From positions 61,902,761-61,966,760 of the forward strand of contig OZ024869.1 of NCBI GenBank assembly GCA_964017185.1: a DNA stretch of 64,000 nucleotides. Reading direction: 5' to 3'. The position numbers and the translations under genes were made by a program. Shown one piece after another: positions 14,083 to 62,034 of the stretch. The stretch is from Rugalucina vietnamica. Lineage: Eukaryota > Mollusca > Bivalvia > Lucinida > Lucinidae. How positions within the stretch are numbered: the first letter of the stretch is position 1; every line of letters begins with the position of its first letter. Below the pieces are notes generated by a model. It made no database searches, had not been told where the DNA came from, and saw only the letters and a program-made list of their open reading frames with translations.

Positions 14083-14132
14083 ACTATAACATGGTTTATA
14101 GCAGAGTTTTGACACCTGGTTTTATAAGACTT

Positions 14133-14440
14133 CATGAGAAAATCGGAATTTTGCATATGCGAAAACAAAGGCGCAGTTAAATAACAGTAACTGTTACAAA
14201 TGTTTAAAGAACAGATATTCGAGTACTTCGAATATAAATTTTAGCAAGATTAAATGAGGTCTTAGACAAAAGAGTAAGAATTTGGTTGCGTCCCGGTCAT
14301 ACAGGGTGTATTGTTTTCTGCCTACACATGTAGGCCTACCGATCAGCCAATAATGTTTTAGTTTGGATATTCGATTATCTTGCCACATATGTTCCTGAAC
14401 TGAAATGAAAAGATGATTTAATCGCAATGTTATCTTATTT
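14133..14440. repeat. Remnant of the TGAGCC-MITE plus unassigned sequence
   Basis: CATGAGAAAATCGG...CATATGCGAAAACAAAGGCGCAG at 14133-14178 matches the inner part of the MITE copies at 15646 and 43284, but the second half is missing or diverged. A TTTGAGCCC near 14439 may be a leftover end. No gene was seen. Confidence 0.45.
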
Positions 14441-15645: not shown

Positions 15646-15879
15646 TGAGCCGCGAGAAAACCGGATTTTTGCCTAGGCGAAAACAAAGGCGCAGATCAGC
15701 TGTGCAGTAATTGTATAGCTGACCAGCGCCTTTGTATTCGCTACTCGGATAGTACAATACCTCTTCTACTTATAGCCAAAATTTCAAGCATTTTGTATGC
15801 TTCTGTGACTGTATACAGTCCGGTTTATGTCGGAACTGGTTGGAAACCCTGAGGGCCGATTTTCTCGCGTCAAGGCTCA
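15646..15879. mobile_element. TGAGCC-MITE, copy M1
   Basis: A 234-bp element with ends TGAGCCGCGAGAAAACC and GGTTTTCTCGCG-like complement ending GGCTCA. The centre is a palindrome around GCGAAAACAAAGGCGCAGATCAGC and its complement (AAAGGCGC/GCGCCTTTGT). No coding. Flanks are AA/AA; the duplication length is not resolved. The same family recurs at 43284, 43775, 50636, 50895, 51652 and 57547 and in remnants near 14133 and 54030. Confidence 0.8.
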
Positions 15880-18272: not shown

Positions 18273-20738
18273 GCCCATACCGAAATCAGGTACAAAATAG
18301 GCACAAAATTTTGTACCTATTTTGTACCATTTATGTGCCTTTTCATTTTAGGCACAAAATAGGTATACCTATTTTGTACCAGTCTGAGAACTTAGAAATT
18401 TTACATGTGCCTTTCATGTGCCTTTGTGGACTTAGACTTTTTTGCCTATACCTATTTTGTGCCTTTCAGGACTTAGTCATTTTTTCATGTGCCTATTTTA
18501 TACCTAGTTCAGACTTAGTCATTTTTTCATGTGCTTTTTATGTACTTTTGAAGAACTTAGATTTTTCTGCCTGTACTTTGGACTTAACCATTTTGAAGAA
18601 CTTAGATTTTTCTGCCTGTATTTTGGACTTAGCCATTTTGAGATGTACCTTTTTTGTGCCTCTTCACAGACTTGTAATATTTTTTGACTAAAATCAGCCA
18701 GAAGGACATATGGATCGAAAACAATAGAATATAAAGATACATTATAAAAATGGTCAAAATATCTTTTGTAAAAGCATGCTGCATTTTAATCAGGCTTAAT
18801 TCATGAGATTTAAGCAACAACTTAATTTCATCCTAGGCTGTACTAAGTCTTCTCAGAACAAATGAGTAGCCAACTCGTAACATTTATGAAATTAATTTGT
18901 ATTGAATTGTTTCTTATAATATGGAACTAAAAGAAATATTTCACTTCCAGACTGAAATAAAATGAATCACAATGATTTTATTTTGTTTTCTTGTATTTAT
19001 TTTCTTATGCTATTTTATCAGTAATTCTATAATATGTCATAACATTATTTAATATTATTCATGTATCTAATGACAATGGCATCTGGATGTACCTAAAATG
19101 TGCCTATGAGCCACTTAATGACTTTCTAATGACTCTTATCTCATGCACAACACATTTTCTGTGTAAAATGAGATTTATGACCACTAACTTGTACACAAAA
19201 CACCCAAGATCTATGTAAAAATCTGCATTTTATAGAGAGGCATACACCAGTTAACATGTGGATGCAAGGAATTAACAGAATATAAAAAGTAAGAATTTGA
19301 CTTTTTATTTTCATACACTAGGTGTGATTACACATATTTTCTGGTATTTTTTTTCAAATTTGCACTTTTGCTGCTACACTTTTTCAATCTGCTTGAAGTT
19401 TAGATTTAAAACAAATAAAACTGTAACTTACTGTTAAATGATTTGTTTGTTTAGAATTATACTTTTATCATAAATGTATGCTGAGTTAAACCTCCCATTA
19501 TATGTACTATCTCTTTGACTTTGGGGTAAATATCTGAATATTTTGACTCCATACTGAGATTCAGCTTCTTGCTGACAATAGATGATGATTATGTCACATG
19601 TAACTGCAGATTTTGGTGACATTTAAAGCTATTTTGTATTCAGTTTTATGTCCTTTTCAAGATAATTTCAGTTCATATTAGACAGGTCAATTATTAGGTG
19701 AGGCGAAAACAGGAGAACCCTAAGAAGAACCACCTGGTACACCCGCAAGCTGAACATGTGACACACAGTTAAGAATGGTTAGTCATGGTAATGAAATAAG
19801 GGTTCTTAACTGTGACTTGGCCACAGGTAAGCCATTTTGATTACAATATATTTATTTGAGCAACTCAAAATGGGAGATTAGTAAGGCTGGGCTTAGGGGT
19901 TCTGACCAGGTCTGATATAAACCAGGCTGTATTGCCACAAAAATGGTTTCAAAAACATTTTTTTTTAAATGGTGGGTTCTATGTGGTAAAAGTAGAACAT
20001 TGTGCTGATCAGTTGTTGTGAGCTTACAGTTTTTTGTATAACTGATCTGAGCCTAGAGCTGTTTTCGAATGTACTAAAGGCAGGTTTTCTTATAATGTGG
20101 CTTTTTAAAGTGGGGGGGGGGGGGGTATATTGCGTACCTATAATGTACCTGAAGACTGCAATATGATTGGCTGTTTTCAAGAACTAAGGTATGGTACCTA
20201 AAATGTACCCCTAGAAACAAACAGGTACACCAGGCACATATGAGGTACATTAGGTACATATTAGGTACACTAGGCACATTATAGGTACACAATTTAACTA
20301 CTAGGGCACAATAAGCACATTGTAATCTTGTGCATAGGCACATAATATGTACATAGGGCACACTTTAGGTACAAAAGGCACATAGTAGGTACAAAAGGCA
20401 CATAATAAGTGCACTGGGCACAATTTAGGTACAGTAGGTACTTGAAAGGTACATTAAGGCACAAAAAAGATACAATAGGCACAAGATAGGTATATAGGCA
20501 CATTAAAGATGCACTAGGCACGTTACAGGTACAAAGGGTACATTGCAGGCACATGTATAGATACAGTGAATTTCAAGTACAAAATAGGTATACTCTTATA
20601 TTTGTATAAATGTACCTATTTTGTATCAGTTTGGCCCAGTTTCAGTCAATGGGCCAATCTTGTACAAAATAGGTATACCTATTTTGTGCCTATTTTGTAC
20701 CCAGAAAATGTGCCTATTTTGTACTTTATTTTGGTATG
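18273..20738. mobile_element. 2.5-kb element with inverted ends and arrays of GTACCT/GTGCCT words
   Basis: The left end reads CCCATACCGAAATCAGGTAC then AAAATAGGCACA. The right end is its near-complement (TGTGCCTATTTTGTAC...TTTTGGTATGGG). It splits a LINE fragment, whose two halves lie on either side. Between 18290 and 18680 the plus strand is packed with TGTGCCT/TGTACCT words separated by ACTTAG-containing spacers. Between 20180 and 20560 it is packed with the complementary AGGTACA/AGGCACA words, about 25 copies with irregular spacing. The centre (18690-20110) is ordinary AT-rich DNA with a 14-G run at 20112-20125. The minus-strand frames in 20074-20554 are just these words translated. No transposase is visible. 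Confidence 0.65.
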
Positions 20739-43283: not shown

Positions 43284-43520
43284 TGAGCCGCATTGTGAGA
43301 AAGCCAGATTTTTGCCTATGCGAAAACAAAGGCGCAGATCAGCTTTGCAGTAACAGCGAAGCTGATCAGCGCCTCTGTTTTCTCTACACGGATTGTACAA
43401 TCCATTATCTTCTTAAATTTGGAATTTCAATGTTCTAGCCTGATTCAGTGACTGCACAGGCCAGTTTGTGTCGGACCTGATCGGAAACCCCGAAGACCAG
43501 TTTTCTCGCGTCACGGCTCA
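43284..43520. mobile_element. TGAGCC-MITE, copy M2, ends 23 bp before an exon
   Basis: TGAGCCGCATTGTGAGAAAG ... CGTCACGGCTCA, 237 bp, with the same GGCGCAGATCAGC/GCTGATCAGCGCC centre as the other copies. The final A of CTCA is at 43520; the splice acceptor AG is at 43542-43543. Confidence 0.8.
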
Positions 43521-43543
43521 AATAATATTGTTCTCATCTTCAG

Positions 43544-43710
43544 GGAGTGTACCTCCAGTATTTTGAGTATGTCTAGTCCGTCGGACTCCACCCCATTTCC
43601 TGTGATAGAGACAGTGCCACTAGGTGACCACCTACCCAGCTCAGAGAAACTTGTATACAGGAGAAATCCTGTCATAGATGGTGTCATTGACTTCACTGGA
43701 GGATCAATGG
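43544..43710 (+). CDS. Mitochondrial ornithine carrier (ORC1-like), first coding exon
   Basis: The exon starts after TTCTCATCTTCAG (43531-43543). ATG at 43569 opens 47 codons plus one base, and the donor is GTATGT at 43711. Residues 33-45 read NPVIDGVIDFTGG, the start of the first transmembrane helix of ornithine carriers, where vertebrate SLC25A15 has NPxIQAAIDLTAG. Joining to 51151 restores Gly48 (G|GG) and gives the same helix length as SLC25A15. Thirty-two residues (MSSPSDSTPF...KLVYRR) precede this point, about thirty more than vertebrate proteins have. The frame stays open upstream to the acceptor, so the 43569 start is likely but not proven. The product would be an inner-mitochondrial-membrane ornithine/citrulline exchanger of the urea and arginine pathways. 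The exon is bracketed by MITE copies M2 and M3. Confidence 0.8.
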
Positions 43711-43774
43711 GTATGTAGTCGGATTATTTTATTATCAGACTTTCAACAAAGTAAATGAACTGGAAGATTTCATT

Positions 43775-44011
43775 TGAGCCTGTGCGTGAGAAAACCAACA
43801 ATTTGGGTTCCGACCAAGTCCGACACAAACTGGCCTTTACAGTCACAGATGCAGGCTAGAAGCTCGTAATTTTGTGTTTAAGTAGAAGAGGGATTCTACT
43901 ATTCCGTGTAGCAAAAACAAAGGCTCTGATCAGCTTCACGGTTACCGCTTAGCTGGTCTGCGCCTTTGTTTTCGCCAATGCATATTATTGGTTTTCCCAT
44001 GTGATGGCTCA
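43775..44011. mobile_element. TGAGCC-MITE, copy M3, 64 bp after the donor
   Basis: TGAGCCTGTGCGTGAGAAAA ... TTTTCCCATGTGATGGCTCA, 237 bp. The central palindrome (TCAGCTTCACGG...CCGCTTAGCTGG) is more decayed than in M2. It lies at the start of intron 1. Confidence 0.8.
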
Positions 44012-44034
44012 TTTATGTTTAATCTTTATTTATT

Positions 44035-47000
44035 CCACTGTGCCTCATCAGAACGCATAGTCGCAGAGAAAAATCGCGTTTCTTCATAGTAGGATGATAA
44101 GCAACGCATATCGAGATAGAATGATGAATGACTGATTTTCAAACACAATTTATGCTTCTATTACAGCCTATCCGTACCACCAATTACGGTTCACAGAAGA
44201 CACAATACATGTATATTAAAAAACCCACTGACGAAAAAATACACAGATGCGTTTCTTTATTTTGCAAAACTGCGAGATACAAAATGAGCTACCGTAACTT
44301 CAGTATCACATGGGACAAGCTTTTCCCGCGTTTTTCTGTCAACAATACACAGATTTCATTGGTTATACATAACACACACTAGAAATAGATATAAATTGTG
44401 TATTTAAAGAATCACCAACGCCAAAAATATAACTGATTCATAGAAATAGCCACTGAAAGTAAATTAACACGGCAACGCATAGTTAGGGAAGTAGGAAATG
44501 CATAGTCAGAAAAGTAGCATCTCTATAAACTCTTAAGAAGATACACGCCTGATTTTTCAAGGTCTCTACTTCTAAGAGAAGATACGAGGTCTGTCCCGGG
44601 AAATCATAAAGATGTATGATATTTCGTGAACGGTTCGTTGAAATTTAAAGATATGTTCATGCTTATAAACTACATTTGTACTGAGCAATCTGTGAAAATA
44701 TTAGTTCAATTGCTTACAAATTGCAAAAGTTATGGAGATTTATATGATGGTGTATCAGCGTTTACAGAGCACGTTGAAAATCATTTTGCTACGTTTTTGT
44801 GGAGAGGTGGTTGAATGTTTTGTGTGCAGTCTCTTTATTAGAGCCGTAATGGTGATTAATATTGTCATCTAAGCATTCATTAAGTCTTCTTAGTTAAAAT
44901 TATAGTCAATAATTTGAGTTATGAATGATAAGTAGAAAAAAAGCATGATCAGTTTCATTTTATATGAGGGAACACTAATTTTATTTTAGACTGAAATAAA
45001 ACAAAAAGATGTCGCTTGTTTAAAATGACAACAAGAAACGACCATTTAGAATATTTAAAGAAAAAATGCATACAAAATCATCACAGGATTATTAATGACA
45101 CAATAGAAGGATTACTTTATATAATAATTTTGTTAAATAAACTTAACTGGAAAGAAAATCTTGGGGAATGTCTAATTTTGCGCCGCAAAACTTACATTAC
45201 GTCACTATTTTCCAATTAAATAATTGCAGTAGGTTTAAGAAAATTTCTATAAAGTCAACGCTGATGGTGAAAATTATTTCAAACTTTCAAAAACTTATCT
45301 TACATAATTACTTGTACAAATGATAGTTAAAATTGTGTAATATCACCTCAACTCGCAATTACAGGAACTGTTGAATTTGTTCTTGATGAATTTCAAAACA
45401 GTGTTTTTGACGTGCGCCGTAGACACCTACCCCTCTTGGAATAAATGCATATAAATCTGTTGTGTAAGGGGTGAATTCATCCATATTTGTACGAAATGTT
45501 TATTAGATGTATGCAAACAGATCATATAAATTTCATGAAATTCTGCAGACACATTACTGTTTTATCACAAATGTCTACGTATTTCTGGGACAGACCCGGT
45601 ATGTGCAGGAAAATGTCGTCGCAAAATCGAGAAAGAAAAATCATGCATGTATCTTCCAAAGAGTTTATAGAGATGCTACTTTTCTGACTGTATCTCGCAG
45701 TTTTGCAAAATAAAGAAATGCCTCTGTGTTTTTTTTTCTTCAGTGGTTTTTAGCTCTCCTGAGCCTTCGGCTCACAGGTGAGCTTATAGTATACCCATGC
45801 TCCGGCATCCGTCCGTCGTCCACAATTTCAAAGATCTTCTCCTCTGAAACCGCTTGGCCAATCAAAGCCAAACTTCATGTGGAGTATCCTTAGGAAGGGG
45901 GAACGAAAGTTTATGTAAATGGTCCAGGTCACATGACCAAGATGGCCGCCATGGCTATAAATAGCAAAAACCTTTAAAAATCTTCTTCTCCAGAACCAGT
46001 GGGCCGATTTCCACAAAACTTGGTATGTAGCATCCGGGACGCGGGCCCATCATAGTTTATATAAATCATTATATAAATCATGACCCTAGGATGACCTTGA
46101 CCTATTTTACGGCAAGGTCAACTTAGGTCGCCAATGCATTTGAATGGGGAAAAATGGTAAAATGCTATTTAATGGGTAAAACTTACTGGGAATAGGCAAA
46201 TGGACAGAAGATTAATGTTAATGGAAAATTTTAGCCCCTGGAGGGTTGTCTGCCCCTACCCCAGGGCTATATACATGTATATGACCATAATATTGAAACA
46301 TCTTCTTCTCTGAAACCGCTTGGCCAATCAAAGCCAAACTTCACGTGGAGCATCCTTGGTCAAGGTCACATGACCAAGATGGCCGCCATGGCTATAAATA
46401 GCAAAAACGTTTAAAAATCTTCTTCTTCAGACCTAGAAGGCCTATGATTTTGAAACTTGGTGTGAAGCATTTGGGAATGGAGCTCTACAAAGTTTATATA
46501 AATCATGACCCTGGGATGACCTTGACCTATTTTACGGCAAGGTCAACCATGCATTGGAATGGGAAAAAATAGGAAAATGTAATTAAATGGCAGAAAACTT
46601 GCTAGAAATGAGCAAATGGACAAGATTTATGTTTAAGAAAATATTTTTGGCCCAGGGGGTTGTCTGCCCCTGCCCCTGGGCTATATACATGTATATGACC
46701 ATAATATTGAAACATCTTCTTCTCTGAAACCGCTAGGCCAATCAAAGCCAAACTTTTTGTAGAGCATCCTTAGGAAGAGGGAATGAAAGTTTGTATAAAT
46801 GGTCAAGGTCACATGACCAAGATGGCCGCCATGGCTATAAATAGCAAAAAGTTTAAAAATCTTTTTCTTCAGAACCAGAAGGCCTATGGTTTTGAAATTT
46901 GGTTTGAAGCATCTGGGAACAGAGGTCTGCATAGCTTATATAAATCATGACTCTGGGATGACCTTGACCTATTTTATGGCAACAGGTCACCCATGCATTT

Positions 47001-47849
47001 GAATGGGAAAAAATAGGAAAATGTCATGTAATGGCAGAAAACTTGCTAGGAATGAGCAAATGGACAGAAGATTTATGCTTATGAAAATATTTTAGCCCAG
47101 GGGTTGTCTGCCCCTGCCCCGGAGCTATATACATGTAGATGACAGCTTTTTCTCAGAAACTGCATAGCCAATCAAAGCCAAACTTTATGTGGAGCATCCT
47201 TAGAAAGAGGAAATGAAAGTTTATATAAATGGTCAAGGTCACATGACCAAGATGGCCACCATGGCTATAAATAGCAAAAATTTTTAAAAATCTTGTTCTT
47301 CAGAACCAGAAGGCCTATGATTTTGAAACTTGGCATGAAGCATTAAGGAACGGAGGCCTACAAAATTTATGTAAATCATGACACTGGGATGACCTTGACC
47401 TATTTCACAGCAAGGTCAACTTAGATTGCCCATGCATTTGAATGGAGAAAATTGTTAAAATGTCATTTGAAGGACAAAACTTGCAGTTAATTGGCAAATG
47501 TACTGAATTTTTATGATTTGAAAAAGACATTGACTCCAGGAGTTATTCTGACCCTGCCCTAGGGTTATATACATGTACGGTGTACCATTCTAGTCTAACA
47601 AGTTTATTGGTACATGTATATATCTCAGGTCTCAGGTGAGCGTTTACAGGACCATTGGTCCTCTGGTTTTATTATATTGTGCCTTCCGTGAACCGTAATT
47701 GGTGGTATGGATAGACTGTAATAGATGCATAAATTGTGTTTGAAAATCGATCATTCATCATTCTATTTCGAACTATGCGTTGCTTATCATCCTACTATGA
47801 AGACATGCAATTTTTCTCTGCGACTATGCGTTCTGATAAGGCACAGTGT
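44035..47849. mobile_element. Foldback element (~1.9 kb without its insert), in intron 1
   Basis: The left end ACTGTGCCTCATCAGAACGC pairs with the right end GCGTTCTGATAAGGCACAGT. Arms extend about 350 bp: left 44035-44390, right about 45665-45750 plus 47667-47849. For example, TTATTTTGCAAAACTGCGAG pairs with CTCGCAGTTTTGCAAAATAA. Copy F of the GCTCACC element sits in the right arm. The centre (44400-45660) has two small plus frames (44626-44814, 45016-45219) that I cannot assign. Confidence 0.75.
45752..47666 (+). mobile_element. GCTCACC-family tandem-repeat element, copy F
   Basis: AGCTCTCCTGAGCCTTCGGC stem, short CCGTCC, and four monomers of the GGCTATAAATAGCAAAAAC subtype. Ends TCAGGTGAGCGTTTACAGGA, hairpin and CTGG/T. 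Inserted in the right arm of the foldback element, between T and T. Confidence 0.85.
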
Positions 47850-47911
47850 ATTCTGATTGTGTTTGAAAATCACTTGCATTTAATGTTTAATCAGTTTATG
47901 TGACTATTTTT

Positions 47912-50085
47912 AGCTCACCTGAGCCAGGGTTCCCATGCGTCAGGGAAAAGTCAGGGAAAAATGGATTTTGCAAAAGTCAGGGAAATGTCAGGGAATTTTG
48001 ATGAGTGTCAGGGAAATTTGAAAAATAAGGCAAAAGTCAGGGAAATGTCAGGGAATTATGAGCAGACTGTCAGGGAATTTTCATCCATTGGGATCTAGTT
48101 TCATGTGTGCCAGTTTTTTCTAAGCTAATTAAGGCAGACTCACGTGTTTAACTTTTTGCTTTAAGCCTTACATTTATATAAATTCTTTTAGAACTTTGAT
48201 ATTGTTTAAAGAGTAATAAAAATAGAATGGATTGCCTCCTGTGTTGGTTCAAATTTTGCATCACTTAAATGTGTTCAATATAATGTAGAATATATGCTCT
48301 GTTTTGATTCGTATTGAGCCGCTGTCTGTCCAAGCAGGAGTGAAAAGTCATTGACTGGGATGATCAGCAGGGACTGCCTTACCTCAAGCAATGCAAATGT
48401 AGAGGTGGAACTCCTTTTGAATGATTTTAGTTCATGGCATCATGTTTACATGTAGTCTGATATTCTGCTAGTATTAGAAACATGCTCTTCACAGTCATTC
48501 CAAAAGAAACTGGATAAAAACTAACAATAATAAGGGCTTTGTTTGTTCACAATGAGTACATTCCATGTGAGCAATTTTATAGCTGTTACATGTATCTTAA
48601 TAGATATTTCATGCAAAACATTAGCTTTATTAATTATTGAATAAGAAGGGGACTTTGGATTGAAACGTCAGTGGAATGTCAGGGAAAATTAGATTTTTGT
48701 CAGGGAAAAGTTAGGGAAATGTCAGGGAATTTTGAAACCGCTGGAGCGTGGGAACCCTCACAAGGTGAGCTTATAGGATGTCCATGCTTCGTCGTCCGTC
48801 CGTCGTCCGTCCACAATTTCAAAGATCTTCTCCTCTGAAACCACTGGGCCAATCAAAGCCAAACTTCATGTGGAGCATCCTTAGGAAGGGGGAACAAAAG
48901 TTTATATAAATGATCCAGGTCACATGACCAAGATGGCCGCCATGCCCATATATGGTAAAAACCATAAAATAATCTTCTTCTCTGGAACCGGTGGACCAAT
49001 TTCAATGAAACTTGGTGTGTAGCATCATGGACTCTGGCCCATCATAATTTATATAAATCATGACCTTAGGTTGACCTTGACCTATTTTAGGGCAAGGTCA
49101 ATTTTGGTTTCATAGGCTTTTCAATGGAAAAATGTGAAAACATTGAATTTTTCAAGAAGTTTTGTAGCCTGTGACCTGAAAGTTGGTAGATACAGACAAC
49201 ATGTTGAGCTAATGAAGTGGTGTGAGTATTAAAGGTCAAGGTCATTTTTTGATCTTGGCCAAAGGTCATTTACAAATTAAATGTTAAACTTAATATTCTC
49301 AGTAACCGCTTATTTTTACCAATCAAAGCCAAATTTTTTATGTAGTATACTTAGGATGGGGGAATGAAAGTTGATATAAATAGTCAAGGTCACATGACCA
49401 AGATGGCCACCATGGCTATAAATAGCAAAAACATTTAAAAATCTTCTTCTCCAAAACCAGAAGGCCTATGATTTTGAAACTTGGCATGAAGCATCAGGGG
49501 GAGGAGCTGTACAAAGTTTATATAAATCATGACCCTGTGGTGACCTTGACCTATTTTACGGCAAGGTCAACATAGGTCGCCCATGCATTTGAATGGGGAA
49601 AATTGTCGAAATGTCATTTGACAGGAAAAACTTTATGGAAATGGGCTAATGGACTGAATATCTATTATTCTGAAAAATGAAAGGACCCCAGGGGCAGGTC
49701 TGCCCCCACCCCCGGGCAATATACATGTATATTACCATAATAATCAGAGATCTTTTTCTCTGAAACTGCTTGGCCAATCAAAGCCAAACGTCTTGTTGAG
49801 TATTCTTAGGAAGGGAAAATGAAAGTTTATATAAATGGTCATGGTCACATGACCAAGATGGTCGCCATGGCTATAAATGGCCAAAAAACCTTTAAAAATC
49901 TTCTTCTTCAGAACCAGAAGGCCTTTGATTTTGAAACTTGGCCTGAATCATCAATGAATACAGCTCTACAAAGCTTGTATAAATCATGACCCTGGGATGA
50001 CCTTGACCTATTTTATGGCAAGGTGAGCTTAGGTTGCATATCTCAGTTCTCAGGTGAGCGTTTACAGGACCATTGGTCCTCTTGT
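47912..50085 (+). mobile_element. GCTCACC-family tandem-repeat element, copy G, with insertion in its 5' stem
   Basis: AGCTCACCTGAGCC at 47912-47925, then an inserted hAT-like element to 48758, then CACAAGGTGAGCTTATAGG resumes. There are three monomers and a 3' end with hairpin AGGACCATTGGTCCT (50067-50081), followed by CTTG/T instead of CTGG/T. It lies in intron 1 of the carrier gene. Confidence 0.8.
47926..48758. mobile_element. hAT-like element with AGGGTTCCCA ends
   Basis: AGGGTTCCCATGCGTCAGGG left and GCGTGGGAACCCT right. Next to both ends are repeats of GTCAGGGAAATGTCAGGGAA (47940-48075, 48668-48735). The middle is unique AT-rich DNA with no frame. A clean target duplication is not visible; part of the host stem (loop and one arm start) is missing. 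Confidence 0.65.
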
Positions 50086-50181
50086 TGTTTTTCTTCTAAA
50101 TTCAGCTTCAAAAAGTTATTTGGTAAAGATTTGCCCATGGGTTTAAAGCTGGCAGTGTTAAGACCTGTTATCGGGGGTCTT

Positions 50182-50408
50182 CACACTGTATTAGCGAGAA
50201 TGTGGAATGTTCGATTTTATACAAAACTGCATTCCTGACTGCCAAAAAAAGGTGTTTTAGATTGCCAAAAAGCATGTGTTGGTAATTGAGAATGTTCAAT
50301 TTACGTTATGCATCATCAATTTGGCAATCCTAAATGCCTTTTTTGGCAATCTGGAACTTTTTCATTTTATCAAATTTGTTGTTTGCGATTGCCGCTAATA
50401 CAGTGTGG
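50182..50408. mobile_element. MITE with CACACTGTATTAGCG ends
   Basis: CACACTGTATTAGCGAGAAT left, CCGCTAATACAGTGTG right. GATTGCCAAAAA/TTTTTGGCAATC pairs are found inside. One end of the same family recurs at 5386-5403. Located in intron 1. Confidence 0.65.
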
Positions 50409-50476
50409 TGTTGCTCTTTTTGAAATTTATAGTGTATTATTATACAGCATTTTATTAAAAATTTCAAGTTTAAAAA

Positions 50477-50502
50477 ACAACAACAACAACAACAACAACA
50501 AC
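50477..50502 (+). repeat. (CAA)n microsatellite
   Basis: Perfect ACAACAACA run of about nine units in intron 1. Confidence 0.9.
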
Positions 50503-50635
50503 ATTTTCTCTGTAGTTCTCTTGCTCATAAGTTGTTTACCCCATTTTGAACCATTTTGAAAGTTGTTGGATTCAATTTCTTGCACCCTTAATCTTACTTA
50601 CACTAGATATGTTTAAAATAGTCTTATACAAAAAA

Positions 50636-50883
50636 TGAGCCACATCATATCATGAGAAAAACAGCTTTTTGCATTTGCAAAAAACAAAAACGCAGATCAG
50701 CTGTGCAGTAATTGCAGCTGATCATCACCTTTGTTTTACATCACGTACAATCCAATCCAGTCCAATCATGTACAATACAGTCCAAAATTTAAAGCTTCTA
50801 TCAATATTCTTTTACTGTATATGCAAGTTTGTGTAGGACCTTGTAGGAAACCCCTAAGACAGGGTTTATGGTGATGCGGCTCA
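50636..50883. mobile_element. TGAGCC-MITE, copy M4
   Basis: TGAGCCACATCATATCATGA ... GGTGATGCGGCTCA, 248 bp, with the GCAGATCAGCTGTGCAG / CTGCAATTAC centre. It is followed after 11 bp by copy M5. Confidence 0.75.
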
Positions 50884-50894
50884 AATATTCTATA

Positions 50895-51134
50895 TGAGCC
50901 TGTGTGTGAGAAAACCAACAACTTGGGTTCTGACCAGGTCTGACACAAACTGACATGACTGTACAATCACAGAAGCAGGCTAGAAGCTTGAAATTTCAGA
51001 TTTAAGAAGATGAGGGATTGTACTATCAGTATAGCGAAAACAAAGGCGCTGATAAGCTTCGCAGTTGCTGCGAAGCTGATTTGCGTCTTTGTTTTCGCAT
51101 ATGCAGATTGTTGGTTTTCTCATGCGGCAGCTCA
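50895..51134. mobile_element. TGAGCC-MITE, copy M5, ends 16 bp before exon 2
   Basis: TGAGCCTGTGTGTGAGAAAA ... TCTCATGCGGCAGCTCA, 240 bp. The central AAGGCGCTGATAAGCTTCGC pairs with GCGAAGCTGATTTGCGTCTT. The terminal A of CTCA is at 51134 and exon 2 starts at 51151. Flanks are TATA/TATTA, compatible with a TA duplication. Confidence 0.8.
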
Positions 51135-51150
51135 TATTATCTGGTTGTAG

Positions 51151-51559
51151 GGGCAGTTTCTTCAGTGTATGTTGGCCAATCACTGGATACTGTGAAGGTG
51201 AAGATGCAGACCTTTCCAACACTATATAAGAATGCTCTAGACTGCTTCATCAAAACATACCAACAGGATGGCATTGCAAGAGGACTTTACGCTGGTACAG
51301 TACCAGCACTTGCTGCAAATGTTGCCGAAAATTCTGTACTCTTCTTATTTTATGGAATTTGTCAAAAGTGCATGTCTTTCATCACCCGAAAGGATGTAAA
51401 ACATTTGAATCCTTTTGAGAATGCTGTGTCTGGGGCGTCTGCAGCAATATTTTCCTCATTTACTCTGTGTCCAACAGAACTTGTAAAGTGTCGTCTGCAA
51501 GCTATGAGAGAAATGGCGTCTCAGGGAAAACTCGAGGGAGGACTAGAGAGATTAAAAAT
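51151..51559 (+). CDS. Mitochondrial ornithine carrier (ORC1-like), exon 2
   Basis: Acceptor TGGTTGTAG/GG, donor AT/GTAAGT at 51560. It encodes residues 48-184, covering the rest of repeat 1 and the start of repeat 2. QSLDTVKVK (57-65) is the first carrier signature, in which the usual Pro (Px[D/E]xx[K/R]) is Ser58 (TCA). LYAGT...AENSVLF (Glu107) matches the substrate-contact region of vertebrate ORC1. CPTELVKCRLQ (154-164) is the second signature with Pro155, Glu157 and Lys160. AENSVLF and CPTELVKCRLQ are diagnostic of the SLC25A15/SLC25A2 type rather than other carriers. The frame is intact over 409 bp. Confidence 0.88.
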
Positions 51560-51651
51560 GTAAGTAATGGAAGGAATTTAGAACAATGCTGAACATTCAT
51601 GTACATGTATATATAAAAATAGAAAGTTAGAAATGGCCAGGAATTTACAAA

Positions 51652-51887
51652 TGAGCCGACTCGTGGGAAAACCAACAATGTGGTTTCGGAACAGGTCCAA
51701 CACAAACCGGGCTGTACAAGCACAGAAGATGGCTAAAGACGTGAAATTTTGGATTTAGAAAGTAGTGGAATTGAACTATCTGTGTAGCGAAAGCAAAGGC
51801 GCTGATCAGCTTCGCAGTTACTGCAAAGCTGATCTGCGCCTTTGTTTTTGCAAATGCAGATTGTTGGTTTTCTCATGAGGCGGCTCA
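51652..51887. mobile_element. TGAGCC-MITE, copy M6, 92 bp after the donor of exon 2
   Basis: TGAGCCGACTCGTGGGAAAA ... TCTCATGAGGCGGCTCA, 236 bp, the best preserved copy. TIR about 26 bp (TGAGCCGmCTCrTGrGAAAA...). Palindromic centre CTGATCAGCTTCGCAG/CTGCAAAGCTGATC. Confidence 0.85.
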
Positions 51888-52185
51888 AATAATAACAAAC
51901 AAATGCCAGTCTTTAAAACTATAAATAGCCAGAAAATAATCTCCAGTACCAATTAGCTGGTTAGAGGGTCTGAGCTTGTCCAGGTTGTATTGAAGTCAAA
52001 CCAGTCGTGTGCAAGCTTAGAAGTCCTAATCATTCCAGTGTTTGGTAGACTCCATTCGAAAATGACATCTTGACATGACCATATCTGTTGACTGGGACAT
52101 AAGATAGCAAAACGAAGTTTCTGTATACTAAATTGCTGAGCTTACTAGCCTCTGCTTAGTCTGTTGCTTCAAGACAGCTGTTTTT
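51888..52185. other. Intron 2, no feature recognised
   Basis: About 300 bp between M6 and copy H with no coding frame, repeat or hairpin that I recognise. Confidence 0.5.
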
Positions 52186-54011
52186 GGCTCACCTGAGATG
52201 AAGGCTCAAAGTGAGCTTTCTGTATAGGCATGATCCCGCATCCATCCATCTGTCATGGTCATCCACAATTTCAAAGACCTTCTTCTCTGAAACTGTTTGG
52301 ACTATCAAGTTGAAATTTTATGTGGAGCCTCCTTAGGTAGTGGCATGGACATTTTGTTTGTGGGATCTTGGTCACACGACCAAGATGGTCTCCACACCCA
52401 TGTATGGTAAACACCCTTCAAAGATCTTCTCCAGAACCGGTGGGCCAATTTCCAGGAAACTTGGTATGTAGCATTGGGGACTCCAGCCCATCATAGTTTG
52501 TTCAAATGATGACTCTGGGATGACCTTGACCTGCTTTATGTCAAGGTCAATTTTGGAAACATAGGCTTTTAAATGGGAAAATGCGAAAACAATGGATATT
52601 TTGGAAACTTATGCAGCCTGGGACTTTAAAAGTTGCTACATGCAGACAACTAATGGAGTCAATGAAGGTATGTAATTAATTAAGGTCAAGGTTCTTGACC
52701 TTAACCCAAGGTCATTTAAATAACAAAATTAAGATTATGGTTTTCTCAGAAATCACTGGACCTTTGAAAGTGAAATTTTATGTGGAGCTTCTATGCTTAG
52801 TGGAGAACAAAGTTTTGTGCATGAAATCTGGGTCAAATGCTCAACATGGCCGCCATGCTCACAATGCTAAAAAATCTCCAGAACCGTTGGGCCAATTTTC
52901 ACCAAGCTTGGTATGTAGCATTGGGGTCTCCAGCCCATCATAGTTTGTTCATATGAGGACTCTGGGATGACCTTGACCTATTTTATGTCAAGGTCAATTT
53001 TGGAAACATAGGCTTTTAAATGGGAAAATGCGAAAACAATGGATATTTTGGAAACTTTTGCAGCCTGGGACTTTAAAAGTTGCTACATGCAGACAACTAA
53101 TGGAGTCAATGAAGGTATGTAATTAATTAAGGTCAAGGTTCTTGACCTTAACCCAAGGTCATTTAAATATCAAAATTAAGATTATGGTTTTCTCAGAAAT
53201 CACTGGGCCTTTGAAAGTGAAATTTTATGTGGAGCTTCCATGCTTAGTGGGGAACAAAATTTTGTGCATGAAATCTGGGTCGAATGCTCAACATGGCCGC
53301 CATGCTCACAAATGCTAAAAAATCTCCAGAACCGTTGGGCCGATTTTCACCAAGCTTGGTATGTAGTATCAGGGACTCCAGCCCATCGTAGTTTGATGGC
53401 CCTAGTATGACCTTGACCAGTTTTACGGCAAGGTCAGTTTTGGAAACATAGGATTGTATATGGGAAAAAGTGAAAACAATGGATATTTTGGCAGCTATTG
53501 CAGCATGAGACCTGAAAGGTATGTGATTAATTAAGGTCATTGGAATATCGAAAATAAAGACTTGTTTTTCTCAGTAACCTCTCAGCCTATGAATATTAAA
53601 TTTTATTCATGCATGGGGAGAATGAAATTTTGTTTGTAAAATGGGGATTGCATGTTCAACATGGCTGCCATGCTCACAAATGCTCAAAATTCTTCTCCAG
53701 AACCGGTGAGCCAATATTCCTGAAAATTGGTATGTAGCCCCATCATAGTTTGTTCAAATGATGACCCAAGGATGACCTTGGCCTATTTTATGGCAAGTTC
53801 AATTTTGGAAACTGGCTTTTACATGGGACAAAGTGAAAACAATGGATTTTTTTTAAACTTTGCAGCCCGAGATCTGACACTTGGCAGATGCAGACAGTTA
53901 AAGAAGTCAATAAAGGTATGTGAGTATTCAAGGTCAAGGTCATTTCATGATGACTAAATGCTCCAAGATCAGGCTTCAGGTGAGCGTTCTCAGGACCAAT
54001 GGTCCTCTGGT
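52186..54011 (+). mobile_element. GCTCACC-family tandem-repeat element, copy H
   Basis: GGCTCACCTGAGATGAAGGC start, four monomers of the GTTTGTTCAAATGATGAC subtype, ends CAGGTGAGCGTTCTCAGGAC, ATGGTCCT and CTGG/T. Fills most of intron 2. Confidence 0.85.
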
Positions 54012-54025
54012 TTTCTAACCTGGTT

Positions 54026-54066
54026 AAGAAACCTGTAAGACATTTTTTAAGTTATGACAAGGCTCA
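54026..54066. repeat. Remnant right end of a TGAGCC-MITE (M8), 23 bp before exon 3
   Basis: AGAAACCTGTAAGAC...TTATGACAAGGCTCA corresponds to the last ~40 bp of the MITE (compare GGAAACCCCGAAGACCAG...CGTCACGGCTCA before exon 1). The rest was probably cut by copy H. The terminal A is at 54066 and exon 3 starts at 54090. Confidence 0.6.
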
Positions 54067-54089
54067 TAGATAGTATTTTCTATTTTGAG

Positions 54090-54262
54090 AGGACCATTTG
54101 GACTGACAAAAGAAATCCTTCATCAGGAAGGAATACGGGGATTGTTTAAAGGTCTGACTGCCACATTTATGCGGGAGATTCCAGGCTACTTCTGTTTCTT
54201 TGGAGGATATGAAATCTCAAGATACCTTCTCACACCGGCAGGGAAAAGCAAAGATGAAATAG
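54090..54262 (+). CDS. Mitochondrial ornithine carrier (ORC1-like), exon 3
   Basis: Acceptor TTCTATTTTGAG/A, donor G/GTTTGT at 54263. Completes Ile184 (AT|A) and encodes residues 185-241 plus the first base of Gly242. GIRGLFKGLTATFMREIPGY ends with Arg212-Glu213, the pair that in human ORC1 contacts substrate (Arg179-Glu180). FFGGYEISR and GKSKDEIG follow, both as in SLC25A15. The frame is intact. Confidence 0.88.
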
Positions 54263-54314
54263 GTTTGTATCATTAAATCCAGACTTATTAATGGGGCAGT
54301 CCACTTTCATTTTT

Positions 54315-56271
54315 AGCTCGACTGCACAAAGTGCATAGAGCTATTGCAGTCACCCCGGTCTTCCACGTTCCCGTGCGCATGCGCGTCACACTTGCGTTAA
54401 AGTTTTCTAGAAGTCCATATCTTGACAACCACTCATCAGAAAGCATTCATACTTGGACCATAGATACCCTGTAGGGTTAGCTTTCATTCCATCGCATCGG
54501 GCCCCTGGGTCCAGGCGAGGGGGTGGGGCTGGAGGTTAAAATCTAGAACACCTTCAAAAATGGCCATTCTTGTGTTAAAGTTTTCTAGAAGTCAACCACT
54601 CATCAGAAAGCATTGATACTTGGGCCATTGACACCCTGTAGGGTCGGCTTTCATTCCATGGCATCGGCTGCCTGGGTCCATGCCAGGGGGTGGGCTAGAG
54701 GTTAAAATCTAGAACATCATTATTATTATTCATTAATAATAATGGCTTTTCTGTGAAGTGAAATTTTATGTGGAGCATCCATGGGTAGGGGGAACTGAAG
54801 TTTGATCGCGAGATCCGGGTCACATGACCAAGATGGCCGCCACGCCCATATATGGTAAAAACACTTCAAAAATCTTCTTCTCCAGAACCGGCTGGCCGAT
54901 TTTCATGAAACTTGGTATGTAGCATTTGGGACTTCAGCCCATCATAGTATGATCAAATGATGACCATAGGATGACCTTGACCTATTTTACGGCAATGTCA
55001 ATTTTGGAAACATAGGCTTTTACATGGGAAAAAGTGAAAACTATGGATTTTTTGAAAACTATTGCAGCCTTAGGCCTGAAAAGTGGTAGATGCAAGCAAC
55101 CAATGGAGTAGATGAAGGTATGTGATTAATTAAGGTCAAGGTCATCTCTTGACCTTGGCCTGTCTGTCGTCCATGCACACTTTTCAAAGATCTTCTTCTC
55201 TGAAACTGCTTGGCCAATCAAAGTGAAATTTTATGTGGAGCATCCCTGGGTAGGGGAGATGAAAGTTTGATCGGGAAATCTAGGTCACATGACCAAGATG
55301 GCCGCCACGCCCATATATGGTAAAAACCACTCAAAAATCTTCTTCTCCAGAACCGGCAGGCCGATTTTCATGAAACTTGGTATGTAGCATTTGGAACTCC
55401 AGCCCATCATAGTTTGATCAAATGATGACCCTAGGATGACCTTGACCTATTTTACGGCAATTTCAGTTTTGGAAACATAGGCTTTTACATGGGAAAAGTG
55501 AAAACTATGGATTTTTTGAAAACTGTTGCAGCCTGAGACCTGCAAACAACTAATGGAGTAGATGAAGGTATGTGATTAATTTAGGTCAAGGTCATCTCTT
55601 GACCTTGGCCAGTCTGTCGTCCATACACACTTTTCAAAGATCTTCTTCTCTGAAACTGCTTGGCCAATCAAAGTGAAATTTTATGTGGAGCGTCCATGGG
55701 TAGGGGGAACGAAAGTGTGATCGCGAAATTCGGGTCACATGACCAAGATGGCCGCCATGCCCAGCTATGGTAAAAACCACTCAAAAATCTTCTTCTCCAG
55801 AACCGGCTGGCCAATTTACGCAAAACTTGGTATGTAGCATTTAGGACTCCAGCCCATCATAGTTTGTTGAAATGATGACCCTAGGATGACCTTGACCTAT
55901 TTTACTGCAAGGTCAATTTTGGAAACATAGGCTTTTACATGGGAAAAGGCAAAAACAATGGATATTTTGGAAACTGTTGCAGCCTGAGACCTGAAAGTTG
56001 CTAGACGCAGACAACTAATGGAGTCAATGAAGGTAAGTAATTAATGAAGGCCAAGGTCATTTGTTGACCTTGACCCAAGGTCATTTAAAATTAAAATTAT
56101 GGTTTTCTCAGAAATCACTGGGTTTGGAAACTATTGCAGCCTGAGACCTGAAGACAACTTGTGAAGTCAATAAAGGTGTGTGAGTATTCAAGGTCAAGGT
56201 CATTTCATGATGACTTAATACTCCAAGATCAGGCTTCAGGTGAGCGTTCTCAGGACCAATGGTACTCTGGT
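54315..56271 (+). mobile_element. Chimeric tandem-repeat element I: GCTCGACTGC 5' part joined to GCTCACC 3' part
   Basis: 54315-54755 matches the first ~440 bp of the 25576 element (AGCTCGACTGCACAAAGTGC, TTTCTAGAAGTCCATATCTTG). At about 54755 (CTTTTCTGTGA|AGTGAAATTT) it changes to monomers of the GCTCACC family and ends with CAGGTGAGCGTTCTCAGGAC and CTGG/T. In the parent at about 26025 the GCTTTTCTGTGA word continues differently. Located in intron 3. Confidence 0.75.
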
Positions 56272-56378
56272 CTTATTTTTGCTCAAAACATAGAATGTGG
56301 GTACATGTTAGAACAGCCTCCGCGAGGCGAGGCGGTTCTAACAAATACCCACGATCTATGTTTTGGAGCAAAAATAAG
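56272..56378. mobile_element. CTCAAAACATAG foldback MITE, copy 4
   Basis: CTTATTTTTGCTCAAAACAT pairs with ATGTTTTGGAGCAAAAATAAG, with a CCTCCGCGAGGCGAGG centre. It starts right after the CTGG of element I. Sequence beyond its right end (TAGGTATACCCCTGTATACC to GTTTTCGTGATG, to ~56467) is also shared with the 58043 copy, so the family may be longer than the palindrome. Confidence 0.75.
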
Positions 56379-56470
56379 AAAATTAGGTATACCCCTGTAT
56401 ACCCCTGTTTTGCTATTAGAAAAGTGAGGTTCAAGTGAGTATACATTACACTGAAATGTTTTCGTGATGT

Positions 56471-56645
56471 TTATTTAAGTTCGGGTAACTGAGGGGCCGC
56501 CTATTGGGAAGTAGCTGCTCACTCGGCATTAGATATGTTCTCTAAGTATAAGTACCTGATTGTCATTTTGTTTTTTCCACCTCGGTTTTTGGAGTAAGAA
56601 TTTCTTTCTGGTTGCGCCTTTTCCAGATCATTGCCTACTTGTATC
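56471..56645 (+). repeat. Dispersed ~185-bp repeat, copy 2
   Basis: Same family as 12240-12425: GTTCGGGTAACTGAG, GTAGCTGCTCACTCGGC, CTAAGTATAAGTACC. Confidence 0.6.
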
Positions 56646-57237
56646 TGTTTAATTACCAAGACTGAGAAACAGAATGCTTGGTTTAATAGAAAAATTCTTC
56701 TCCATACGTGTATTTAGGATAGCTAAGGTATGTGACGGTGCACACTGCAGACCTCCTGTTTACACTATTTTCATCCATTATTTAGATAGAAAATATACAG
56801 CGTATCAATTTTTCTTCGGGTCAGACGAATATTCTACATGTACATGCATCTCTAGCCTATTCGCTTTGTACTACCTTTGTATGAAGCATATCTACATGTA
56901 TTAAGTATGAATACTTGGAGGGACCAGGCAGTAATCGATGCAATAAAATTTGACATACATGTTGACGTCGGGCAGGCATGAAAATTCAACATAAACATTT
57001 TTTTACAACACACCTTACGAGCAAGATTGCTTAAATTGTATAAATCGCGCATATCTGATTCACGTCGCGCATGTTTGACAAATGATTTTGCGCGTTTGCG
57101 AGATGATCGCGCGAAGTTTGCAAGTGACTCGCGAGTGACTTGCGAGTGACTTGCGAGTCACTCGCGAGTAAAGATAATCCCCTGTGCGCAACCACGCGCA
57201 AATGGGCGTACGCTCAAAGCATCGCGACAACTGTACT
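56646..57237. other. Intron 3, CpG-rich palindromic cluster, no gene
   Basis: 57060-57210 is unusually CpG-rich for the window. At 57126-57169 the 11-bp word GACTYGCGAGT is repeated four to five times head to tail and inverted, forming a compact palindrome. Nothing else is recognised. Confidence 0.5.
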
Positions 57238-57546
57238 GTACACATTGTAGTGTTTGAAGCACCAATGCTTCATGCCAAGTTTTGTTGAAATCTGTCCACT
57301 GGTTCTGGAGAAGAAGATTTTTGAAGGTTTTTTTACCATATATGGGCATGGCGGCCATCTTGGTCATGTGACCTGGATTATTTATGTACACATTGGTTCC
57401 CCCTTCCTATAGATGCTTCATATAAAATTTGGCTTTGATTGGCCAAGCGGTTTCAGAGGAGAAGATCTTTGAAATTGTGGACGGACGGACGCCGGATCAT
57501 GGCCATCCTATAAGCTCACCTTTTGAGCCTAACGACTCAGGTGAGC
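57238..57546 (-). mobile_element. GCTCACC-family tandem-repeat element, copy J (3' truncated)
   Basis: Minus sense: AGCTCACCTGAGTCGTTAGG stem, (CCGT)n, one monomer, then it stops near 57238. Its 5' end lies against the interior of a TGAGCC-MITE (M7), into which it was probably inserted. Confidence 0.75.
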
Positions 57547-57753
57547 TAACAATCTGCATAGGCAAAAACAAAGGCGCAGATCAGGAACTGCAAAGCTGGT
57601 CAGTGCCTTTGTTTTTGCTACATGGATAGTCTCATTCCTCTACTATCTAAATCCAAAATTTCCCATCTCCAGCCATCTTCTATGCTTGTACAGCTCGGTT
57701 TGTGTCGGACCTGTTAGGAAACCACATTGTTGGTTTTCCCACGAGGCAGCTCA
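57547..57753. mobile_element. TGAGCC-MITE, copy M7 (left end missing), ends 20 bp before exon 4
   Basis: From AACAATCTGCATAGGCAAAA through AAAGGCGCAGATCAG to TTCCCACGAGGCAGCTCA. The left ~20 bp is replaced by copy J. Terminal A at 57753; exon 4 starts at 57774. Confidence 0.75.
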
Positions 57754-57773
57754 GATAATGGTTGACATTCCAG

Positions 57774-57935
57774 GAGCCATTAGGACAATAGTAGCGGGAG
57801 GAATGGGTGGAGTGGCATTGTGGGTAGCTATTTTCCCGGCAGATGTTGTCAAATCTCGGGTTCAGGTGGAAAGCACAGCGGGTACTGTGGAGCCAACCTT
57901 TAGATCTGTTATCAGACAAGTCTTCAAAGAGGAAG
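57774..57935 (+). CDS. Mitochondrial ornithine carrier (ORC1-like), exon 4
   Basis: Acceptor TTGACATTCCAG/GA, donor G/GTACAG at 57936. Completes Gly242 (G|GA) and encodes residues 243-295 plus the first base of Gly296. GGMGGVALWVAIFPADVVKS includes the third carrier signature, Pro263-Ala-Asp265-Val-Val-Lys268. RSVIRQVFKEEG closes the exon just before the expected LYxGLxPTxIR segment. That last exon (about 48 residues, the sixth helix with the Arg of human position 275) was not found in 57936-64000. An earlier ATG at 57758 lies before the acceptor and is intronic. The frame and phase match the three preceding exons. Confidence 0.88.
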
Positions 57936-59645: not shown

Positions 59646-62034
59646 ATAGCCCCGCTTTGGAAAAGTGGGGCTATACTGGATTCACCCTATCCTTCCGTGG
59701 TTCCGTGATTCTGTGGTTCCGTCATTCCGTGAACATTTCGTTTCCGCTCAATATCTTAAGAACAAATTGACAGAATCTGACCAAATTTTGTATGCACATC
59801 AACATTGACAAGATCTAGCTTGGGATTGTTGCCCGTCATTTTTTGCGAAATTTTGATGGAGTTACGGCCCTTGATTGACGTCAGAATTTCGTTTCTGCTC
59901 AATATCTTAAGAACGAATTGACAGAATCTGACCAAATTTTGTATGCACATCAGCATTGACAAGGTCTAGCTTGGGATTGTTGCCCGTCATTTTTCGCAAA
60001 ATTTTGATGGAGTTACCACCGTTGTCAGAATTTTGTTTCTGCTTAATATCTTGAGAAGGAATTGACAGAATTTGACCAAATTTTGTATGCACATCAACAT
60101 TGACATGATCTAGCTAAGGATTGTTGCCCGTCATTTTTCGCAAAATTTTGATGGAGTTACACCCCTTGATTGAAGTCAGAATTTCGTTTTCGCTCTTTTT
60201 CTTGAGAAGGATTTGACAGAATTTGACCAAATTTTGTATGCACATCAACATTGACATGATCTAGCTTGGGATTGTTACCCGTCATTTTTCGCAAAATTTT
60301 GACGGAGTTACGGATCTTGATTGACATCATAATTTTGTTGTCGCTCAATATCTTGAGAACGAAAGGACAGAATCTGACTAAATTTTGTATGCATATCAAC
60401 ATTGACAAGATCTAGCTTGGGATTGTTGCTCGTCATTTTTCGCAAAATTTTGATGGAGTTACAGCCCTTGATTGACGTCAGAATTTCATTTCCGCTCAAT
60501 ATCTTGAGAACGAATTGACAGAATTTGACCAAATTTTGTATGCACATCAACATTGACATGATCTAGCTTGGGATTGTTGCCCGTCATATTTAGCAAAATT
60601 TTGACGGAGTTACGGCCCTTGATTGACATCATAATTTTGTTTACGATCAATATCTTGAGAACGAAAGACCAGAATCTGACCAAATTTTGTATGCACATCA
60701 ACATTGACAAGATCTAGCTTGGGATTGTTGCCCATCATTTTTTGCGAAATTTTGATGGAGTTACGGCCCTTGATTGACGTCAGAATTTCGTTTCTGCTCA
60801 ATATCTTAAGAATGAATTGACAGAATCTGACCAAATTTTGTATGCACATCAACATTGACATGATCTAGCTAAGGATTGTTGCCCGTCATTTTTCGCAAAA
60901 TTTTGATGGAGTTACACCCCTTGATTGAAGTCAGAATTTCGTTTTCGCTCTTTTTCTTGAGAAGGATTTGACAGAATTTGACCAAATTTTGTATGCACAT
61001 CAACATTGACATGATCTAGCTTGGGTTTGTTGCCCGTCATTTTTCGCAAAATTTTGATGGAGTTACGGCCCTTGATTGATGTCAGAATTTCATTTCCGCT
61101 CTATATCTTGAGAAGGAATTGACAGAATTTGACCAAATTTTGTATGCACATCAACATTGACATGATGTAGCTTGGGATTGTTGCCCGTCATTTTTAGCAA
61201 AATTTTGACGGAGTTACGGCCCTTGATTGACATCATAATTTTGTTTACGATCAATATCTTGAGAACGAAAGGCCAGAATCTGACCAAATTTTGTATGCAT
61301 ATTGACAAGATTTAGCTTGGGATTGTTGCCCGTCATTTTTTGCAAAATTTTGATGAGTTACAGCCCTTGATTGACGTCAGAATTTCGTTTCCACTCAATA
61401 TCTTGAGAACGAATTGACAGAATTTGACCAAATTTTGTATGCACATCAACATTGACATGATCTAGCTTGGGATTGTTGCCCGTCATATTTAGCAAAATTT
61501 TGACGGAGTTACGGCCCTTGATTGACATCATAATTTTGTTTACGATCAATATCTTGAGAACGAAAGACCAGAATCTGACCAAATTTTGTATGCATATCAA
61601 CATTGACAAGATCTAGCTTGGGATTGTTGCCCGTCATTTTTCGCAAAATTTTGATGGAGTTACGGCCCTTGATTGACGTCAGAATTTCATTTCCGCTCAA
61701 TATCTTGAGAAGGAATTGACAGAATTTGACCAAATTTTGTATGCACATCAACATTGACATGATCTAGCTTGGGATTATTGCCCGTCATTTTTAGCAAAAT
61801 TTTGACAGAGTTACGACCCTTGATTGATATCATTATTTTGTTTCTGCTCAATATCTTGAGAATGAAAGGACAGAATCTGACCAAATTTTGTATGCATGTC
61901 AACATTGACATGATCTAGCTTGGGATTGTTGCCCGTCATTTTTCGCAAAATTTTGATGGAGTTACAGCGCTTGATTGATGTCAGAATTTCGTTTCCGCCC
62001 AATATCTTGAGAACGAATTGACAGAATTTGGTCG
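59646..62034 (+). mobile_element. Tandem-repeat element, ATAGCCCCGC family, ~15 monomers of 151 bp
   Basis: Starts ATAGCCCCGCTTTGGAAAAG with stem CCCCGCTTT/AAAGTGGGG. A (TTCCGTGG)n-like stretch follows at 59692-59732, then ~151-bp monomers containing TCAATATCTTGAGAACGAATTGAC and GTATGCACATCAACATTGAC, as far as the LINE at 62035. The 3' end signals are lost there. Because 151 is not a multiple of three, the many ~83-residue minus-strand frames shift from unit to unit and are not coding. Confidence 0.8.

Follow-up and report, generated by a model that had tools for sequence, protein, structure and literature searches.

In mammals, transposable elements are reported to be depleted near exons (PMC3088655). 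Introners, which resemble DNA transposons, often have terminal inverted repeats (TIRs) and lie in genes, are described as carrying or co-opting the splice sites of the introns that they make, and the bias reported for them is towards nucleosome linkers (PMC9860276). A repeat resembling a miniature inverted-repeat transposable element (MITE) is known from the introns and promoters of the haemoglobin genes of the clam Lucina pectinata (PMC4732748). Here we describe a MITE family whose ends, in three genes of the lucinid clam Rugalucina vietnamica, are found 14–25 nt outside exons, before acceptors and after donors, more often than under uniform placement. The starting point was a stretch of 64,000 nt (the window; positions 61,902,761 to 61,966,760 of OZ024869.1), which is part of contig C1 of the 1.09-Gb genome and contains most of the gene for mitochondrial ornithine carrier 1 (ORC1). 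Like introners, this MITE is DNA-transposon-like, has TIRs and lies in genes; unlike them, it leaves the splice sites outside its copies, in introns that already existed. Its enrichment at 14–25 nt in the genes examined differs from the depletion of mammalian intronic elements near exons, and is unexpected because of that depletion. The Lucina repeat resembles it, by description, in its place in clam genes, but no splice-border pattern is described in the available part of that report. No earlier account of such a pattern was found in the open-licence literature searched, which is no proof of absence.

The distances were measured in ORC1 and two paralogues of CYFIP, which together provided 35 acceptors and 32 donors. 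An element end lay 14–25 nt upstream of 10 acceptors, 26–100 nt upstream of two, 101–125 nt upstream of another two, and less than 14 nt from none. If ends were placed uniformly between 14 and 100 nt, 12/87 of them would be expected at 14–25 nt; 10 of the 12 acceptor-side ends in that range fell there (P ~1e-7). The share is 9/11 without the doubtful copy M8 (P = 8e-7), 8/10 without M8 and the acceptor in the 5′ untranslated region (UTR; P = 5e-6), and 6/8 for CYFIP alone (P = 1.5e-4). The concentration was sharpest on the acceptor side; downstream of donors, four ends lay at 14–25 nt, four at 26–100 nt and none closer than 14 nt (P = 0.016 for 4/8). The pattern was first noticed in the sampled locus L014, and when the exons of ORC1 and of that locus are excluded, 4 of 25 acceptors have an element end at 14–25 nt.

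The excess was also seen within whole introns. Fifteen complete introns contain 19 elements (M2 and M8 excluded), four of which end 14–25 nt from the acceptor and three from the donor. With the MITEs and the other detected repeats excised from these introns, random placement predicted 1.36 such ends, against the seven observed (P = 0.00023; the ORC1 exon ends used in the permutation differ by at most 2 nt from those of the five-exon join described below). Among the other repeats of 16 introns, none of 26 segments ended 14–25 nt from a border, compared with seven of the 19 MITEs (Fisher P = 0.001). The target motif of the family was rejected as the sole cause on the acceptor side, where it is no denser beside the acceptors (0.058 at 8–21 nt) than further out (0.039–0.058). 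The original prediction, which concerned ORC1, had considered the positions of the ends hard to call chance and had suggested that the element might prefer splice borders. The permutation bears out the former, and the latter now finds support beyond ORC1 and on both exon sides (CYFIP, the permutation and the genome-wide pattern counts).

The CYFIP genes came from a Pfam search covering 69 open reading frames (ORFs) of sampled loci, taken from the 150 that ranked highest. PF05994 was present in two of the 69; these two ORFs were placed by tblastn in L014 and its neighbours, and CYFIP alone was studied further. A family search located two inverted paralogues, at C1:32.904–32.938 Mb (−) and 32.980–33.006 Mb (+). 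Their exons were found with a human CYFIP1 sequence, and the borders were read by eye. In CYFIP-b, element ends precede seven of the 18 acceptors, at 23, 19, 14, 15, 44, 108 and 123 nt (the value of 15 counts the last seven decayed positions as part of the copy, and would otherwise be 22), while the other 11 have no element end within 125 nt. In CYFIP-a, for which the border-adjacent stretches (at least 106 nt before acceptors) rather than whole introns were seen, ends lie 17, 22 and 54 nt from three of the 12 acceptors, with no element in the at least 106 nt examined upstream of the other nine. Sixteen donors were read in CYFIP-b, and elements follow six of them, at 16, 21, 20, 20, 33 and 43 nt. 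Taking both genes together, 6/30 acceptors have an end 14–23 nt upstream and 4/28 donors have one 16–21 nt downstream, with none closer than 14 nt. The two paralogues share intron borders at which the element is present in one of them only (the cy40k exon at 1429 compared with L031, and the exon at 13989 compared with L037), and therefore the introns at these borders predate the insertions.

The element has a 236-bp consensus with the ends TGAGCC and GGCTCA, to which 44 full copies show a median identity of 87.5%. It is short and numerous, has TIRs, a foldback (strong in M6, with a single-strand DNA fold z of -8.9) and a target-site duplication, which are the criteria of a MITE, and it is an abundant non-autonomous DNA transposon of this kind. 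Among the 29 copies reaching both model ends, 20 are flanked by an exact 2-bp duplication (AA in seven, TT in seven, TA in five and AT in one), within a strict A-WW-T target: A precedes all 20, and T follows 19. The TIRs and a 2-bp duplication made of A and T only, flanked by A and T, are like those described for MITEs of the ISL2EU group in the PHIS superfamily (PMC4482050). Unlike the ISL2EU target given there (A-AT-T), the duplication here is AA, TT or TA and only once the AT dinucleotide; in that group the autonomous partner would have a PIF/Harbinger-type DDE transposase. A profile built from six window copies matched nine places in the window, seven near-complete and two weak or partial, and a second profile, used for a larger sample, found 76 copies in 324 kb of sampled sequence. 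The original estimate of fewer than ten copies thus holds for the window but not for contig C1, where 20 systematic 10-kb samples contained ~50 copies, or ~1 per 4 kb.

For ORC1, tblastn identified three coding exons in the window and one in the locus L006; the first coding exon was read from the sequence. In the splice check, the five joined exons had GT-AG introns of phases 1, 2, 1 and 1 and encoded an open protein of 337 aa that matches Mito_carr, with homologues named mitochondrial ornithine transporter 1. The named relatives that it matches best come from Mya arenaria (80%), Dreissena polymorpha (76%) and Sinanodonta woodiana (75%). The acceptors at 51151, 54090 and 57774 proved to be real, as their exons match ornithine carrier 1 and join in the open frame, and the profile matches place M2, M3, M5, M6 and M7 in one family, as had been proposed. 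The same distances from the terminal A to the first exon base were obtained (M2 24, M5 17, M8 24 and M7 21 nt), and starts of M3 and M6 at 64 and 92 nt past the donors agree with the exon ends of the join. The claim that a MITE end precedes every acceptor of this gene stood for 51151, 57774 and the inferred 43544 and is doubtful for 54090, giving three clear cases and one doubtful one among five; it failed at the fifth (L006:2421), which lacks an element, and no profile match lies in the 30 kb that follow the window. The doubtful copy, M8, was recognised by its GGCTCA and was not detected by the MITE profile. Its end-anchored alignment scored 38, against a maximum of 36 in 1000 shuffles; 40 GGCTCA sites were listed outside the seven elements, including M8 itself and the left side of M7, and one of the other 38 (at 52208) outscored it with 39.

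Across the genome, the pattern GGCTCA-N8-20-TTNCAGG had 3059 matches compared with 1865 for GGCTCA-N68-80-TTNCAGG, both being mixed counts, as GGCTCA also occurs outside the family. Base composition was rejected as the cause of this excess, as the near/far ratio predicted at 118 ends, from single-base composition only, is 0.91. Several observations weigh against an insertion preference. Three of them argue that any effect is not very strong: the first 100 genome-wide near matches were flat from 15 to 27 nt, the distance profile of YAG around 96 element ends had no clear bump, and among the 45 rows listed for sampled copies, few convincing cases of exon-like sequence after an AG were seen outside ORC1 and CYFIP. 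The distance sample comprises three genes of one genome, with borders read by eye, and none of the 12 CYFIP-a donors has a donor-side copy. Other repeats also approach exons: four of the 26 segments come to within 5 nt of an exon (two upstream of acceptors, at 1 and 5 nt, and two downstream of donors, at 0 and 2 nt), and when scored as within 25 nt, MITEs and other repeats are not clearly different (Fisher P = 0.10). Past the donors, the target motif has a density of 0.076 at 8–21 nt and of 0.035–0.096 in other bins, and the donor-side pattern may partly reflect the motif, because target sites are somewhat dense there. Finally, no exact 2-bp duplication flanks 9 of the 29 copies that extend to both model ends.

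The reading that we prefer, and to which we give an even chance, is that the MITE entered pre-existing introns with a bias to exon-flanking intron DNA, at ~14–25 nt on both sides, and that splicing then acted as a filter. The transposase would reach exon-adjacent DNA more easily, either as the linker beside an exon-bound nucleosome or as DNA opened by transcription, and by analogy with introners, insertion into nucleosome linkers may hold for this MITE as well. Splicing would remove insertions closer than ~14 nt to a border. On the acceptor side, the element end (TTTTCTC...GGCTCAW) could replace the displaced branch point, which would probably aid survival of the copy. The main rival, unlikely though it seems to us, is a neutral geometry in which the introns had only ~150–670 nt of non-repeat sequence when the element was active, and later repeats lengthened them, leaving the early copies at the edges. 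Of the 15 introns tested, 14 indeed have 148–665 nt of non-repeat sequence and the other has 2.6 kb, and the repeat segments abutting exons would fit as well; but short ancestral introns predict no peak at 14–25 nt over 26–100 nt, where 10 and two acceptor-side ends were counted, and neither the permutation in repeat-excised introns nor the genome-wide near/far excess agrees with them. Chance in a repeat-rich region is very improbable: the abundance of the family and the weakness of M8 make it easier than first assumed, whereas the three-gene distance statistics, the permutation and the genome-wide counts led us to reject it.

The original prediction had also proposed that the element end was adopted as branch-point sequence. 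A terminal CTCA followed by T fits the branch-point consensus yUnAy, and of 96 ends, 57% have T as the first base of the outer flank. Insertions could thus have been kept or favoured because they supplied a ready branch point and a pyrimidine tract at the right distance, as the termini 14–24 nt upstream of the exon at 10 of the 35 acceptors would suggest. As the sole explanation this is unlikely: CTCA is present in six of the 10 acceptor-side ends (the others have CTCG, CGCA, CTTA or a degraded end, and M8 owes its recognition to its GGCTCA) compared with 100/127 ends overall, the donor-side copies are left unexplained, and a filter alone does not raise the density at 14–25 nt over that at 26–100 nt. 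The further proposal, that the introns originated or were reshaped around the element, fared worst and is very unlikely. MITE-like elements within introns and the linker-biased, MITE-like introners reported from algae (PMC9860276) lend it some plausibility. Wherever a copy lies within 100 nt of a border, however, the splice sites are at least 14 nt outside it (35 acceptors, 32 donors), and in the CYFIP comparison only one of two paralogues has the element beside a border that they share. Introner origin was disfavoured as the element does not set the intron boundaries and introns are present where it is absent from the border. The exon borders of the human gene argue in the same direction, since clam introns 1 and 2 presumably correspond to c.55/56 and c.452/453, as judged through the human protein. 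In the human gene, a donor is reported at c.56 (PMC4358699), and c.446 and c.552 are placed in exons 4 and 5 (PMC9730883); the former would adjoin the place of clam intron 1, and the latter split appears to fit intron 2.

If the enrichment at 14–25 nt on both sides of exons is true, either the transposase senses exon chromatin or transcription, or the transposon end is competent in splicing. Either outcome would connect transposon targeting, exon-bound nucleosomes and branch-point evolution in a way that can be tested, and the pattern would be a halfway state toward introners. It is possible, but improbable, that this one family has exon-flanking DNA as its target and also rewrites 3′ splice sites, with thousands of introns using a transposon terminus as their branch-point region.

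Table 1. MITE copies and ornithine-carrier exons, in window coordinates unless stated otherwise.
Feature	Position	Strand	Evidence	Remarks
MITE fragment	14130..14192	-	profile match	
MITE M1	15646..15879	-	profile match	no adjoining acceptor recognised by eye
Old diverged MITE copy	19887..20102	+	profile match	
MITE M2, full length	43284..43520	-	profile match	right end lies 24 nt upstream of acceptor 43544
ORC1 exon 1	43544..43710	+	5′ UTR acceptor inferred from sequence only	ATG at 43569
MITE M3, full length	43775..44011	+	profile match	starts 64 nt past exon 1 donor
MITE M4, full length	50636..50883	-	profile match	just upstream of M5
MITE M5, full length	50895..51134	+	profile match	right end lies 17 nt upstream of acceptor 51151
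ORC1 exon 2	51151..51559	+	tblastn; splice check	
MITE M6, full length	51652..51887	+	profile match	starts 92 nt past exon 2 donor
M8, doubtful MITE-end remnant	54020..54066	.	end-anchored alignment	24 nt before acceptor 54090
ORC1 exon 3	54090..54262	+	tblastn; five-exon join	
MITE M7	57543..57753	-	profile match	another repeat overruns the left end; right end lies 21 nt upstream of acceptor 57774
ORC1 exon 4	57774..57935	+	tblastn; five-exon join	
ORC1 exon 5	from L006:2421		tblastn; five-exon join	beyond the window

M2 and M3, on opposite strands, form an inverted pair flanking exon 1 of ORC1, which might promote the formation of circular RNA. The last intron of the gene (window 57936 to L006:2420) is 18.5 kb long and contains ~11.8 kb of other repeats, with no MITE copy found in it. 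A second long repeat, internally expanded and with the ends GGTGAGCG...CAGGACCAATGGTCCTCT, lies at ~45756–50084 and ~52180–54012 of the window, occupying much of introns 1 and 2, and a relative of it stops a few nucleotides upstream of exon 4 of CYFIP-b. Further along the window, at ~59650–62030, is a long array of similar units (GACAGAATTTGACCAAATTTTGTATGCACATC...), which adjoins an ORF at 62049–63998 (−) that looks reverse transcriptase-like by eye.
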